From Deltaproteobacteria bacterium (GTDB taxonomy: Bacteria > Desulfobacterota > Desulfomonilia > UBA1062), in the NCBI GenBank assembly GCA_015486075.1, contig WFSG01000014.1, forward strand, positions 1 through 43,129: DNA of 43,129 bases, read 5' to 3'. Numbering within the stretch: the stretch's first letter is position 1; every line of letters begins with the position of its first letter. The translations under genes were made by a program, and so were the position numbers. The notes beneath the pieces are model-generated. The model was given only the letters and a program-made list of their open reading frames with translations, was not told the DNA's origin and searched no databases. Of this stretch, positions 1,417 to 39,676 are shown one piece after another.

Positions 1417-3748
1417 GTCACTGATGCTGGTTGAATCCCCGGCAAAGGCAAGAACAATCAAACGTTATCTTGGCAAGGGATTTGATGTGGAGGCAACTAT
1501 GGGCCACATAAAAGACCTACCAAAGACCACCATGGGTGTAGATACGGAAAACGGTTTTAAACTTAACTACAGAGTAAAACCAGACAAGAAGGACCTTGTA
1601 AAAAGGATTAGACAACTTGCAAAGACAGCGGACGACGTATATCTGGCATCTGACCCGGACAGGGAGGGTGAGGCCATTGCATGGCACATGGCAGAGGAAC
1701 TGGAGAAGACAGGGAAAAAAGCAAAAAGGGTTACATTCCACGAAATTACAAAAAATGCCATCAAGGAGGCGGTAAAAAGGCCAAGGGAACTTAATGCATA
1801 TCTCTACAATGCCCAGATGGCGCGCAGAGCAATCGACAGGATCGTAGGCTATACCATGAGTCCACTCCTATGGAAGCGTGTTAAGAGGGGTCTATCCGCG
1901 GGTAGGGTGCAATCCGTGGCACTCTCCATGATATGTTCAAGGGAAGAGGAGATAGAGTCCTTTGTTCCAATAGAGTTCTGGACCGTGGATGCAGTGCTCA
2001 CCACGCAAGGTGGTGAAAACATGCTAACCAGGGTCGTGGATCCAAAGGAAATTACCACAGAGGCCCAAGCCAAGGATATCGTGAGGCAAATAGAGACCTC
2101 GCCGAGAATAGTAATATCAGGTGTTGTTAAGAAGGATAAGAGAAGGAACCCTCTCCCGCCATTCATAACGTCTACCCTCCAGCAGGAGGCATCAAGAAGG
2201 CTCAGGTTTTCTTCGAAAAAGACTATGGTCATTGCCCAGCAACTTTACGAGGGCATACAACTAGGTGAAATGGGACCTGAAGGCCTCATAACATACATGC
2301 GTACTGACTCACCAGCCATCTCGGCAAGCGCCATGAATGCAGTAAGGGACTTCATACAGTCAAGTATGGGCAAAGAATACCTGCCAGACAAGCCAAGGAT
2401 GTACAAGGCAAAAAAGACAGCACAGGAGGCGCACGAGGCAATCAGACCAACGAACATCAAAAGGACGCCAGAGCTTGTAAAGCCATACCTCGATACTGAT
2501 CAGCTCAAACTATACGAACTCATATGGAAAAGGTTTGTTGCATCCCAGATGGAGAGTGCTCTATTCGAGCAAACCACAGTGGATATAGACGCATCCGGGG
2601 TAGGCCTAAGGGCCACTGGCTCTGTGCTACGTTTTGATGGGTACATGAAGGTGTACAACTTAGGAGATACAAAGGATAAGCTTCTACCCCAGGGACTCAG
2701 CGAGGGACAGCAACTAGACCTGGTAGAAACCAGACCCGAACAACACTTTACTCAGCCGCCTCCACGCTACACCGAGGCAACCCTTATAAAGGAACTCGAG
2801 GAAAAGGGCATAGGCAGGCCCAGCACCTATGCACCCACTATCTCCACTATACAGGAAAGGGGCTATGTAAGGCTGGAGAAAGGTGTATTTAAACCAACAG
2901 AGCTGGGCAGGGATGTAAATAGGCTGCTGGTGAAGAACTATCCCAACATCATAAATGTGGGTTTCACAGCAAGCATGGAAGACACCTTGGACAAGATAGA
3001 AGAAGGCAAGAAAACTTACGTGGAGAGCATGGAGGTTTTCTACTCCAAGTACATCAAGGAACATACAAAGGCCGAGAAAGAAATGGAGGATCTCAAGACC
3101 TCGCCTAGGCCGTCCGGTATAAAGTGCGATATCTGTGGCAAGGAGATGCTCATCAAGATAGGTCGGAACGGGTATTTTCTTGGTTGTTCCGGTTATCCCG
3201 AGTGCAGGAATACAAAGAATTTCACCAGGGATGAAAAGGGAAATATAGTTGTGGTCGAGCCGCCCAAGCCGGATGAAGACAGCCCTGTGTGTGACAAGTG
3301 CGGCGCACCAATGGTCGTTAAACACGGCAGGTTCGGACCCTTCCTAGCCTGCAGCAACTACCCTAAATGCAAGAATACTAGACCTATTAAAACGCAGGAG
3401 ACCACGGACAAGGTATGCCCCAAGTGCGGCGCACCAATGGTCGTTAAACACGGCAGGTTCGGACCCTTCCTAGCCTGCAGCAACTACCCTAAATGCAAGA
3501 ACATAATGCCATATACACTTGGCCTCAGGTGCCCTATGCCTGCCTGCGACGGAGAGATTATAATAAGGCGTACGAGAAAGGGGAGGACGTTTTATGCCTG
3601 CTCAAACGACAACTGCACCTTCGTGGCATGGAGTAAGCCAGTGGAGAAAAAGTGTCCCCTATGCGGTGCTGACTTCCTCATAAGGAAGGGTAAAAAACTC
3701 GTTTGTCCTAATCCCGAGTGTGGATATGAAGAGCAAGAGGAAGGCTGA
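1409..3748 (+). CDS. topA: DNA topoisomerase I with five C-terminal zinc ribbons
   Basis: Type IA topoisomerase that relaxes negative supercoils through a 5'-phosphotyrosine link. The 779-residue protein starts with a Toprim domain (VESPAKARTIKRYLG; the acidic DPDREGEAIAWH motif near residue 80) and carries the active-site tyrosine in LITYMRTDS, Tyr296. After residue about 570 come five four-cysteine zinc ribbons (first cysteines near nucleotides 3126, 3291, 3417, 3531 and 3651). Ribbons two and three are identical over 27 codons at the DNA level (see the repeat entry). The start ATG overlaps dprA by 8 bases behind GAGGAGA. Its last 23 to 29 bases overlap trmFO. Length and domain order are normal for bacterial TopA; the near-duplicate ribbon is the only oddity. 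Confidence 0.97.
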   Translation: MAKSLMLVESPAKARTIKRYLGKGFDVEATMGHIKDLPKTTMGVDTENGFKLNYRVKPDKKDLVKRIRQLAKTADDVYLASDPDREGEAIAWHMAEELEKTGKKAKRVTFHEITKNAIKEAVKRPRELNAYLYNAQMARRAIDRIVGYTMSPLLWKRVKRGLSAGRVQSVALSMICSREEEIESFVPIEFWTVDAVLTTQGGENMLTRVVDPKEITTEAQAKDIVRQIETSPRIVISGVVKKDKRRNPLPPFITSTLQQEASRRLRFSSKKTMVIAQQLYEGIQLGEMGPEGLITYMRTDSPAISASAMNAVRDFIQSSMGKEYLPDKPRMYKAKKTAQEAHEAIRPTNIKRTPELVKPYLDTDQLKLYELIWKRFVASQMESALFEQTTVDIDASGVGLRATGSVLRFDGYMKVYNLGDTKDKLLPQGLSEGQQLDLVETRPEQHFTQPPPRYTEATLIKELEEKGIGRPSTYAPTISTIQERGYVRLEKGVFKPTELGRDVNRLLVKNYPNIINVGFTASMEDTLDKIEEGKKTYVESMEVFYSKYIKEHTKAEKEMEDLKTSPRPSGIKCDICGKEMLIKIGRNGYFLGCSGYPECRNTKNFTRDEKGNIVVVEPPKPDEDSPVCDKCGAPMVVKHGRFGPFLACSNYPKCKNTRPIKTQETTDKVCPKCGAPMVVKHGRFGPFLACSNYPKCKNIMPYTLGLRCPMPACDGEIIIRRTRKGRTFYACSNDNCTFVAWSKPVEKKCPLCGADFLIRKGKKLVCPNPECGYEEQEEG
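3295..3501 (+). repeat. Perfect 81-bp direct repeat inside topA
   Basis: Positions 3295-3375 and 3421-3501 are identical over 81 bases with an offset of 126 bases (42 codons). The repeat covers most of zinc ribbons two and three, from the CG of the first CxxCG to the final CKN. The identity includes every third codon position, so it reflects a recent duplication or gene conversion and not protein-level selection. Sequence on both sides differs at once. Confidence 0.95.
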
Positions 3749-35396: not shown

Positions 35397-36377
35397 ATGA
35401 TTGTTAAAGATACAAGCACAGAGAGTGCTAAGACTCTCCATTACTGGGGAGACTGGACCGATTCCAAGCCACTTGCCCTCTTCACAGAGAGTATCGTTAC
35501 CATGTTGACTAGACCATCTGCACACCAGGCATTTGTAGATCTCATATCCCTTATGGGTCAGACGTTCCCCATCTCTGCACCAGCGATGTATGTAAGCCTC
35601 CAGGAACTAGGCACAAGCATATACACCGTTCTTGACCCAAAAGATGGGGGCAATGAGGACACTACTAGAATCCTTGGAAAAATGAAAAACAAGGGAAACT
35701 ATTCCTACTTTAAGGTAAAGGTTGGTGGACATCCACCTGTGCTTAAGGACAGGGTGGACGTCGCTATAATACAAAAAAACAAGGCTTCTGTGTTACTAAG
35801 CATCAACTCTGGTAACCATGAATATATCTTCAGACAATGGGTCAAAATATTGGCGCCTGCCATGATAAAGGTCATTGACAACGAACAACTCAAGAATATG
35901 GCCTTCAGAGACAGCCTTACCGGTCTTCTCAACCACCGAGCATTCGAGCAGATGCTCGGTATAGAATGCGACAGGATTCTCAGATATGGTGATACGTTCT
36001 CGCTAATAATGCTAGATATAGACTGGTTCAAAGTTGTAAATGACCGTTACGGGCATCAGGCAGGGGATAGGGTACTAAGGCAAATTGCCGAGAAGATAAG
36101 GGAGAGCGTAAGGAAGAGTGACATGGTCTTCCGTTACGGGGGTGAAGAATTCATGGTTATAATGCCGCATACACGCATATCCAATGCATTGAAGCTGGCT
36201 GGAAGAATCAAGAAAAACATTGAACGCATGGCAATAATACCGGGTCACAAGATAACCCTGAGCCAGGGCGTTACTCAATATAAGGATGGACTTTCTCCCT
36301 CAGATCTCGTAAGAAAAGCAGATATAGCTCTCTACGAAGCAAAGCACAAGGGGAAGAACAGGATAGAGGTGGAATAA
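35397..36377 (+). CDS. Diguanylate cyclase (GGDEF domain)
   Basis: Makes cyclic di-GMP from two GTP. The 326-residue protein has an N-terminal domain of about 160 residues, partly GAF-like and without membrane helices, and a C-terminal GGDEF domain (about 165-326). The active loop is GGEEF (248-252), a functional variant, with metal-binding aspartates in MLDIDWFK (Asp207, Asp209) and a complete product-inhibition I-site, RKSD (239-242), five residues before the loop. So it is probably active and feedback-limited. The gene has GGAGGG upstream. The downstream PilZ-type gene starts 6 bases after the stop, so synthesis and reading of the messenger are in one operon. Confidence 0.92.
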   Translation: MIVKDTSTESAKTLHYWGDWTDSKPLALFTESIVTMLTRPSAHQAFVDLISLMGQTFPISAPAMYVSLQELGTSIYTVLDPKDGGNEDTTRILGKMKNKGNYSYFKVKVGGHPPVLKDRVDVAIIQKNKASVLLSINSGNHEYIFRQWVKILAPAMIKVIDNEQLKNMAFRDSLTGLLNHRAFEQMLGIECDRILRYGDTFSLIMLDIDWFKVVNDRYGHQAGDRVLRQIAEKIRESVRKSDMVFRYGGEEFMVIMPHTRISNALKLAGRIKKNIERMAIIPGHKITLSQGVTQYKDGLSPSDLVRKADIALYEAKHKGKNRIEVE

Positions 36378-36383
36378 AGCGAT

Positions 36384-37211
36384 ATGAAGATTGACAAGAT
36401 ACTTGACATTAATTCCGAGCTTACCCTGCATACCCCGGATGGGACTGTAATAAAGGGAAAGATAACCGATATATCAGACGACGAATTTTTTTTCACACCT
36501 GAGAGTGCCCTCAACATATCACCGGAACAGATGGTAAAGGTATCTGACGGCCATGATGCATGCCATGCAAAGGTCATGGATAGGTTAGATAATGGCTTCA
36601 GGCTCAGGATGGACTTCACGGTAACTCCAGACAAGGAGAGAAGGCAGGATGTCCGGATATACGATAAGATATACTATAGCGTTAAATTTTTGGCGCATGC
36701 GGCAGACAAGGGAAAGGTGATATCCGAAGCACTCCTGAAAATACGTGCAAACAGGCTTATAATTGACTCTTTTTTAAAGGGCAAGTACGGTTACCCTGGT
36801 ATTGAAGATATACCAAGAACAAGTGAGACACCCTTCAACCAGGCGTTGTGGGAGGTAAACAGAAAACTTGACCTGCTTATCCACATCTTTCTTGCAGAAG
36901 ACTTCGTGCCACTCATTAAAACCACTCCAAAGGACACTAACATAAGTGCATCCGGTATAAAGTTCATCCACGACACCCCATTGGAGACTGGTGATCTTGT
37001 CGAGGTGGACATGATCCTGCCTATGATGCCCCTGTTGTTTTTAAGGGTATTGGCCGAGGTAATAAGGATAAAGGAACTTGCATCCGATGCTGAAACCATG
37101 AATTATGCCATAGCTGCACGCTTTGTGCAACTTGACCCCGAAAGCCGTGAGGACATCATCCGTTACCTCTTCAAGAGACAAAGAGAGATACTGAGGGACA
37201 GGAAACATTAG
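36384..37211 (+). CDS. PilZ-type c-di-GMP receptor with a long insertion
   Basis: A 275-residue protein. The N-terminal 80 residues form a strand-rich domain like the YcgR N-terminal domain (SELTLHTPDGTVIKGKITDI). A PilZ-type domain follows, with RxxxR in RRQDVR (Arg87, Arg91) and NxSxxG in NISASG (Asn186, Ser188, Gly191). These two motifs normally lie about 20 to 30 residues apart but here 95 residues, mostly predicted helix, separate them (about 100-182). Similar helical insertions occur in some tetrameric PilZ proteins. The insert includes NRKLDLLIHIF. Position directly behind a diguanylate cyclase supports c-di-GMP binding. The stop overlaps the hydrolase reading frame described next. Confidence 0.8.
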   Translation: MKIDKILDINSELTLHTPDGTVIKGKITDISDDEFFFTPESALNISPEQMVKVSDGHDACHAKVMDRLDNGFRLRMDFTVTPDKERRQDVRIYDKIYYSVKFLAHAADKGKVISEALLKIRANRLIIDSFLKGKYGYPGIEDIPRTSETPFNQALWEVNRKLDLLIHIFLAEDFVPLIKTTPKDTNISASGIKFIHDTPLETGDLVEVDMILPMMPLLFLRVLAEVIRIKELASDAETMNYAIAARFVQLDPESREDIIRYLFKRQREILRDRKH

Positions 37212-37946
37212 GATCACCTACCTAGGTCATGCTTCTTTATCGATTGAGGCCCATGGTACACGCATATTGGTTGACCCCATGTTCAGCATGCGTGCCTTTC
37301 TCATAAAAAGGGCATACCCCCCACCTGTGAAGACATCCGACATAAAAGGCTATAACGCAGTCCTCCTGACGCATGCACACTATGACCACATGGACATACC
37401 AACACTAATGGATCTAGAGGATAACATCCAGGTTATCACGGCCTGGAACACCTCGGATGTGATAAGAAAGGCATGCAAGAAAAGGATCATCGAGATGAGG
37501 CCATGGCAGAAGGCTAGTATACCCGGGGCAACTATTACTGCCACGCCCGCAAGACACTGGGGTGCAAGGAACATGTACGACATATGGAGGGTTATGTGGG
37601 CTATGTGATAGAAACGGACTGTGCCACTGTCTACGTGGCAGGTGACACGGGCTACGGCGGGCACTTCAAGGCCATATCAGGACGGTTCAACATAGACGTG
37701 GCATGTCTGCCCATCGGATGCTACAGACCGTTCTGGTTCAGGTTAAACCATCTCTCCCCATCCGATGCCATAAGGGCCTTTAAGGATCTAAAGGCAGACA
37801 TGATGGTCCCGGTGCACTGGGGCACATTCCGCCTGAGCCTGGAGAGGCTCGGAGAACCAGTAAGGGACCTAAAGAGAATAATGGATGGTCTTCCCATCAA
37901 GATACTTAAGCCAGGACAAGGCCTTACTTACTCCAGGCAGGACTGA
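37207..37946 (+). pseudogene. UlaG-like metallo-beta-lactamase-fold hydrolase broken by a -1 frameshift
   Basis: Two adjacent frames together make one MBL-fold protein of about 246 residues. The first (37207-37599) reads IRITYLGHASLSIEAHG, VDPMF, LLTHAHYDHMD and TPARHWG; the second (from about 37599 to 37946) reads GYVIET, VYVAGDTGYGGHF, LPIGCYRPFW and VPVHWGTF. All metal ligands (HxHxDH, the later His, Asp, His) are kept. They join perfectly if one G is added to GGG at 37598-37600, giving MWGYVIE; so the sequence lacks one base. The first frame has no ATG, GTG or TTG before its first strand, only an ATT at 37207 that overlaps the PilZ-gene stop. This could be a genuine pseudogene, a sequencing error, or less likely programmed frameshifting. 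Related proteins are metal-dependent hydrolases of diverse substrates. Confidence 0.8.
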
Positions 37947-37990
37947 ACTGAATCATGGTATTTATGGCTAGTTATCCACAGCCCCGGGTA

Positions 37991-38018
37991 TTGACACGCG
38001 AGAATGCACCACTATTCT
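37991..38018 (+). promoter_or_regulatory. Promoter of the acyl-CoA synthetase gene
   Basis: A perfect TTGACA at 37991-37996, 16-bp spacer, and TATTCT at 38013-38018. Transcription would start near 38025, leaving a leader of about 110 bases with a good ribosome site (AAAGGAGAG). A consensus DnaA-box word, TTATCCACA, lies just upstream at 37972-37980. Confidence 0.5.
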
Positions 38019-38137
38019 ATGAATAAACTAGTCTATAGGGTAAAAAGTCCTCAATAGGCCATATCCTAATGGCTGACAGGCCTTTTGCAGGACTATGATA
38101 TATTGCAGATATAAAATATTAATGAAAGGAGAGTGTT

Positions 38138-39676
38138 ATGGACTTAGGATCTTTGGTGGCCAGGAATGCAAGGATGACACCTGACAAGGAAGGACTGGTG
38201 TTCGAGGGAAAAAGGTATACCTGGAAAGAGGTGAATGAAAAGGTCAATGCCATTTCAAACACATTGATTGGCCTTGGACTTAAAAAAGGGGACAAGGTAG
38301 CAATGTGGATGATGAATTCTGACATGTTTGTCTTTGCCTTTTACGGGATTACAAAGGCAGGGGGAGTTGCGGTACCTGTTAATTTCAGGCTGGCCCCACC
38401 CGAGGCAGAATACATCTTTAACAACTGCGATGCAGTGAGTGTCATCTTTGACGACATATTTGCGCAGGCCATGAGTGACATGAAGCCGAGGCTTAAACAC
38501 ATACGTGGCTTTTTCTCGGCAGGACCCGGTAGGTTCGAGGGAATCGATCCATTAGAAGAGGTCCTCGAGACAGGTAAAACAGGCGAGCCAGGTGTTGAAG
38601 TGGATGAGTTCGACGAAAGTGAGATATTATATACCTCCGGCACAACAGGAAGGCCAAAGGGGGCACTCTTTGTTCACCATGCCCACATGGTATTAACTAC
38701 GTCCATGACATCTCTCATAGGTATAAACCCAGAGGACAGGATCATACACGCGGCTCCTCTTTTCCACTCAGCACAGCTTAACCTCTACCTAAACCCCGGT
38801 ACCTATGTTGGGGCCACGCACATAGTCAACAAGGAATTCTGGCCTCCAGAGAACGTCTTGAAGCTGATGGAGCAGGAAAAGGCAACACTTTTCTTTGGAG
38901 CACCCATAATGTACACCATGCTCATGGGCGCCAAGGATTTCGAAAACTACGATCTAAGCTCGGTTCGCTACTATGGCTACGGTGCAGCTCCCATGTCCAG
39001 GGAGGGCGTCAGGCAGATGATAGATAAGTTCAAAACCACCAGTTTCTTCTGCCTGTGCGGTTTTACAGAGGCTGGTCCCGGCGGGGTGGCCCTCCTGCCA
39101 AAGGACCAGATAAGGAAGGCAGGCGCAGGGGGAAAATACGTTGTGAACATGGAGTGCCGCTTGGTGGATGACAACGAGAATACCGTGACAGAACCAGGCG
39201 TGGTAGGTGAATTTGTCATCAAGGGCGAGATGGCAATGAAGGAGTATTACAAGAATCCCGAGGCAACAGCAGAAACCATAAAGAACGGATGGGTCCATTC
39301 CGGTGACCTTGCTATCATGGACGACGAAGGCTACATCACCCTCGTAGACAGGAAAAAGGACATGATCATAACAGGCGGTGAAAATGTCTACTCCAAGGAG
39401 GTGGAAGATGCCATGGCCGAGAATCCCAAGATAGCCGAGGGTGTGGTTATTGGCATACCACATCCCACCTGGGGGGAGACCGTGATGGCAGTGGTAAGCC
39501 TGAAGCCAGGGGAGAGCATGGACCTCAACGAACTTAGGGAATTCCTGAAGCCCAGGCTTGCAGATTACAAGATACCTAGGCTACTGGAGATAGTTGATGC
39601 ACTACCAAGGAACGTGTCCGGTAAGGTCCTGAAATACAAGCTGAGAGACATGTATAAAGACAGGGCTAAGGCCTGA
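38138..39676 (+). CDS. Acyl-CoA synthetase (AMP-forming)
   Basis: Activates a carboxylic acid, probably a medium or long fatty acid, to its CoA thioester. The 512-residue protein has the P-loop YTSGTTGRPKG (165-175), the YGYGAAPMSREGVRQMI region, GFTEAGPGGV, the hinge VDRKKDMIITGGENVYSKEVE and the C-terminal adenylation lysine near 496 in NVSGKVLKYKLR. The ATG follows AAAGGAGAG. It is monocistronic, with its own promoter, and convergent to the zinc peptidase. Chain-length preference cannot be read from the sequence. Confidence 0.9.
   Translation: MDLGSLVARNARMTPDKEGLVFEGKRYTWKEVNEKVNAISNTLIGLGLKKGDKVAMWMMNSDMFVFAFYGITKAGGVAVPVNFRLAPPEAEYIFNNCDAVSVIFDDIFAQAMSDMKPRLKHIRGFFSAGPGRFEGIDPLEEVLETGKTGEPGVEVDEFDESEILYTSGTTGRPKGALFVHHAHMVLTTSMTSLIGINPEDRIIHAAPLFHSAQLNLYLNPGTYVGATHIVNKEFWPPENVLKLMEQEKATLFFGAPIMYTMLMGAKDFENYDLSSVRYYGYGAAPMSREGVRQMIDKFKTTSFFCLCGFTEAGPGGVALLPKDQIRKAGAGGKYVVNMECRLVDDNENTVTEPGVVGEFVIKGEMAMKEYYKNPEATAETIKNGWVHSGDLAIMDDEGYITLVDRKKDMIITGGENVYSKEVEDAMAENPKIAEGVVIGIPHPTWGETVMAVVSLKPGESMDLNELREFLKPRLADYKIPRLLEIVDALPRNVSGKVLKYKLRDMYKDRAKA

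Follow-up and report, generated by a model that had tools for sequence, protein, structure and literature searches.

Closest described systems

Frameshifts confined to a single genome have been surveyed in 1,106 prokaryotic genomes, in which most of the homology-validated singletons are attributed to sequencing errors, the alternative being indel mutations (PMC3711429). Likewise, the resequencing of M. smegmatis revealed that a significant share of its interrupted coding sequences were errors (PMC1852416). The frameshift considered here, in an MBL-fold hydrolase gene of a deltaproteobacterium, is ordinary in kind. As in the singletons detected by GeneTack (PMC3711429) and in the interrupted coding sequences, or ICDS (PMC1852416), one indel is validated by homology and by Pfam and is not found in relatives, so that it differs in nothing from a typical case. 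The frameshift is itself of little weight: whether real or an artefact, it interrupts a single gene of a single draft genome. More interest would rather attach to the codon at which the gene appears to begin, an AUU at which initiation is putative. Known non-canonical starts placed under the control of IF3 are those of infC, which begins with AUU in E. coli, and of sigR, which begins with GTC (PMC5472188).

Judged by sequence and by predicted fold, the hydrolase is placed closest to NAPE-PLD and to the UPF0173 hydrolases, and not to UlaG. Indeed, the nearest solved relative of the intact orthologue by sequence is human NAPE-PLD (E 2.5e-31), and its predicted fold (mean pLDDT 77.7, pTM 0.85) finds its best matches in NAPE-PLD (TM 0.76-0.80), followed by UPF0173 hydrolases. 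The motifs HxHxDH, HWx, AGDTGY, PIGxYxPxWF and HWGxF are shared with NAPE-PLD (PDB 4qn9 and 8p90), whereas the latter counts 393 residues against 246 here and shows 26-27% identity in the fold alignment, a likeness by sequence and fold only. Proteins of the UPF0173/PRK00685 family (e.g. TM_1162, 3x2z) are of the same length class and fold, and the model NF001911 matches over the full length, but with 99.8 bits against an NCBIfam cut-off of 144 and with about 26% identity. The first-pass annotation had called the gene UlaG-like. This is a loose label: the MBL superfamily is shared with UlaG (the L-ascorbate-6-phosphate lactonase), together with a partial match, but the PRK11709 model gives 32.3 bits, far under its NCBIfam cut-off of 306, and membership was rejected. 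The same genome also carries a separate, shorter and more distant MBL-fold relative (G000:C48:18498-18734, in a 215-codon open frame).

The locus and its gene order

The window, i.e. the whole stretch of 43,129 nucleotides that was analysed, is contig C14 of genome G000 (2.30 Mb in 49 contigs). It was compared with G001, a deltaproteobacterium of the same genus (MAG B14_Guay9, QMLJ01000037.1), and with G003 and G005, which belong to two further genera of the same family. The features of the locus are the following.

35397..36377, + strand: GGDEF diguanylate cyclase gene, intact, order as in G001
36384..37211, + strand: PilZ-domain gene directly upstream of the MBL gene, intact (PilZ E 2e-9; 90% identity to G001)
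37207..37211, + strand: ATTAG, the putative AUU start of the MBL gene, with a one-base overlap with the PilZ TAG stop
37207..37608, + strand: MBL-fold hydrolase gene, N-terminal part, frame 1 (Lactamase_B_2 E 1.2e-18; 77% identity to G001)
37586..37592, + strand: frame transition GGAGGGT, from protein and DNA alignments with G001, G003 and G005
37590..37946, + strand: MBL-fold hydrolase gene, C-terminal part, frame 3 (Lactamase_B_2 E 6.6e-13; 73% identity to G001)
38138..39676, + strand: acyl-CoA ligase gene, downstream, intact, order as in G001

In G001, a single MBL gene of 246 codons stands in the same order as in G000, GGDEF - PilZ - MBL - acyl-CoA ligase. Orthologues at more than 55% identity occur in only 4 of the 24 genomes of the order, so the gene is accessory and dispensable there. 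No further close orthologue was found in a phylum-wide search of 395 genomes, and a scan of genome contigs matched only G001 and a distant homologue from Zoogloeaceae.

Two reading frames of one gene

The open frames of positions 36601-39000 were read. Frame 1 of the MBL gene, open from after an in-frame TGA at 37192, encodes THAHYDH and RHWG and is then closed by a TGA stop (37606-37608). From about 37590 onwards, AGDTGYG and VPVHWG are read in frame 3, up to a TGA stop at 37944-37946. The original description of a frame that carries HxHxDH and HWG and stops, relayed by the next frame with AGDTGYG and VHWG, is thus visible in both translations, and the frame change is genuine in the sequence as given.

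The Lactamase_B_2 profile is matched at its positions 1-116 by the N part and 126-200 by the C part, with 67.9 and 49.2 bits, respectively, against a cut-off of 27. These ranges being consecutive in two frames, the two parts are consecutive parts of one MBL-fold domain; a single G001 protein also matches both G000 frames, which are adjacent. The ligand set is present and split, the N frame holding HxHxDH and the second-strand His, and the C frame the bridging Asp (AGDTGYG) and the last His (VPVHWG). In the predicted fold, the break falls after residue 128, within a loop of low confidence that joins strands 108-114 and 130-136.

Position of the missing base

In protein alignments, the undivided orthologues of G001, G003 and G005 all read W-R-G-Y-[VL]-G-Y at the break, and the DNA alignment places a single gap in G000 immediately behind TGGAG, within the G run at 37589-37591; the transition therefore lies in this run, which has one base more in G005. 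The register passes from the frame-1 codon 37588-37590 (R) to the frame-3 codon 37590-37592 (G). Homology of the N part to its relatives extends to R128 (37588-37590), beyond which only a short unrelated tail follows.

The missing base had initially been assigned to the GGG at 37598-37600, where an additional G was expected to restore MWGYVIE. The orthologue alignments move the site about ten bases upstream, and MWGYVIE is not the family sequence, as it leaves V-M-W where the orthologues have G-Y-[VL]. The site at 37598-37600 was rejected, since the orthologues read WRGYVGY and not WRVMWGY. The MBL gene is in this respect a caution that indel sites should be placed by homologues, not by an expected motif.

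The idea that homologues might be naturally split at this place fails for all three of the orthologues that were found, in G001, G003 and G005. The break is a singleton, carried by one of four orthologues; its homologues are undivided, and both frames are spanned by a protein match as well as by a Pfam match, which validates the frame change.

Recent deletion or assembly error

The best explanation, given a little better than an even chance, is that of a very recent loss of a single base. One G would have been lost from the run at 37589-37591 in the G000 lineage, splitting an accessory gene for a NAPE-PLD/UPF0173-like MBL-fold hydrolase into an N frame and a C frame. The deletion would then be located in the organism, not only in the assembly. 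The shortened products would be inactive, because neither bears the full metal site: a product cut short at the break would lack the bridging Asp as well as the last His, and a C product started at GTG 37596 would be without four or more of the metal ligands.

Compared with G001, the N part shows a dN of 0.137 and a dS of 1.26 and the C part a dN of 0.172 and a dS of 1.6, i.e. a ratio of about 0.11 for each (Nei-Gojobori; rough values, as dS is near saturation). Lineage-specific amino-acid changes, with G005 and G003 as outgroups, amount to 13 in G000 and 16 in G001 and are not raised in the former. These substitution patterns point to purifying selection on both parts with no sign of relaxation, and the break, if real, would by this measure be of very recent date. 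The ratio of about 0.11 and the absence of excess change on the G000 branch led to the rejection of an old pseudogene. The early proposal, by which the gene has decayed recently or the assembly lacks a base, is borne out by a break confined to one genome, a complete set of ligands and selection that is not relaxed.

An assembly or sequencing error is nearly as likely as a recent deletion, its chance being somewhat short of even. The gene would be intact in the organism, and the contig would lack one base of a short G run. A singleton break with every ligand kept is in favour of such an error, as is selection that has stayed purifying on both sides until now, since the absence of relaxation fits an error equally well. 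It is also what the literature leads one to expect for homology-validated singletons (PMC3711429; PMC1852416).

Frame changes were surveyed by comparing a sample of 1.04 Mb of G000 with 0.56 Mb of G001. The homologous gene stretches without overlap numbered 226 (72,291 aa, or some 217 kb of coding sequence), and two frame changes were flagged in G000. Only that of the MBL gene is true. The other (L114 10598-11025) is not a gene: it is an antisense open frame that straddles a boundary between genes, upstream of a hisA-like gene. In the reverse direction, G001 displays one true frame change in 232 stretches, besides a false one at a gene boundary. This true single frame change of G001 is located near the C-terminus of a disulfide-reductase-like gene (L069, about 3454-3466, G001:C24).

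With one true frame change in 226 stretches, the G000 assembly is therefore not full of indels, and an error-ridden assembly was rejected. A rate of 1/226, the same as the 1/232 of the other draft genome, speaks for an error at the MBL gene, whereas the lack of a second such case in the coding sequence compared speaks against it. The frame-change rate in G000 is the low background of draft genomes and neither proves nor excludes an error at this gene. Short-read assemblies rarely lose one base of a three- or four-base run, which counts against an error if the platform was a short-read one. A genuine deletion is placed slightly ahead of an error because no other such fault occurs in the 217 kb and because the gene is dispensable in its order.

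Recoding is very improbable as an explanation. Programmed or tolerated -1 frameshifting, or slippage, would give a full-length protein, and a GGAGG motif does lie at the site (37586-37590), with all ligands kept across the two frames. Against this, the frame-0 codons at the break are ATA TGG AGG GTT ATG TGG GCT, no X XXY YYZ slippery heptamer occurs at 37585-37603, no more than three bases make up the G run, and the 80 bases downstream of the break fold no better than shuffles (z = 0.30). The frame change is moreover absent from all three orthologues, and no frame site is seen at the break in G001, G003 or G005. Programmed frameshifting was rejected on the missing heptamer, the z value and the lack of conservation, and the -1 event at TGG-GGC suggested at the outset is without support.

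No better a chance is given to half-proteins translated separately and then assembled into an active enzyme, with the C half starting at ATG 37584 or GTG 37596: the break does fall at the junction of two halves of the predicted fold, and GGAGGG stands about 4-5 bases ahead of the in-frame GTG 37596, but no relative is split, this GTG is not conserved (GTT in G001, CTG in G005), the N part ends in a short unrelated tail, and the W-R-G codons produce this arrangement incidentally. At 37586-37598, GGAGGG followed by the in-frame GTG (37596) forms a fortuitous ribosome-binding site for the C frame, absent in relatives.

A putative AUU start overlapping the PilZ stop

A rare AUU codon seems to serve as the start of the MBL gene and of its relatives. 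In G000, no ATG, GTG or TTG is found between the in-frame stop at 37192 and the ILVDP of the MBL frame. In G000, G001 and G005, this frame opens only four codons ahead of an ATT, which overlaps the TAG of the PilZ gene as ATTAG. This ATT is the only possible initiator common to the three genomes and aligns with the Met of related proteins; none of the three offers a canonical start, and the AUU is conserved together with an SD-like sequence. G003 likewise has an ATT at the aligned position, preceded at seven bases by GGAGGG; there, the PilZ gene is not upstream, and GTG and TTG codons are available upstream. The 246 residues first counted for the restored protein are obtained only with a start at ATT 37207, a non-canonical start that was not mentioned with the count.

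Inspection by eye of 138 G001/G000 pairs whose 5' end is complete revealed no other clear case. To our knowledge, conserved AUU starts outside infC have rarely been documented. It may be proposed, tentatively and at somewhat under an even chance, that the gene is translated from an AUU start which overlaps the PilZ stop and is kept across at least two genera; this would hold expression low and tie it to PilZ translation and to the level of IF3, as for infC and sigR. The frameshift would then be a lone recent break in a weakly expressed accessory gene. Gene callers limited to ATG, GTG and TTG would mis-start this family of hydrolases.

The infC gene of G000 (L054 14819-15376, G000:C11) has no ATG, GTG or TTG before its conserved N-terminus, and probably starts at an ATA located after GGAGGTTGCT.
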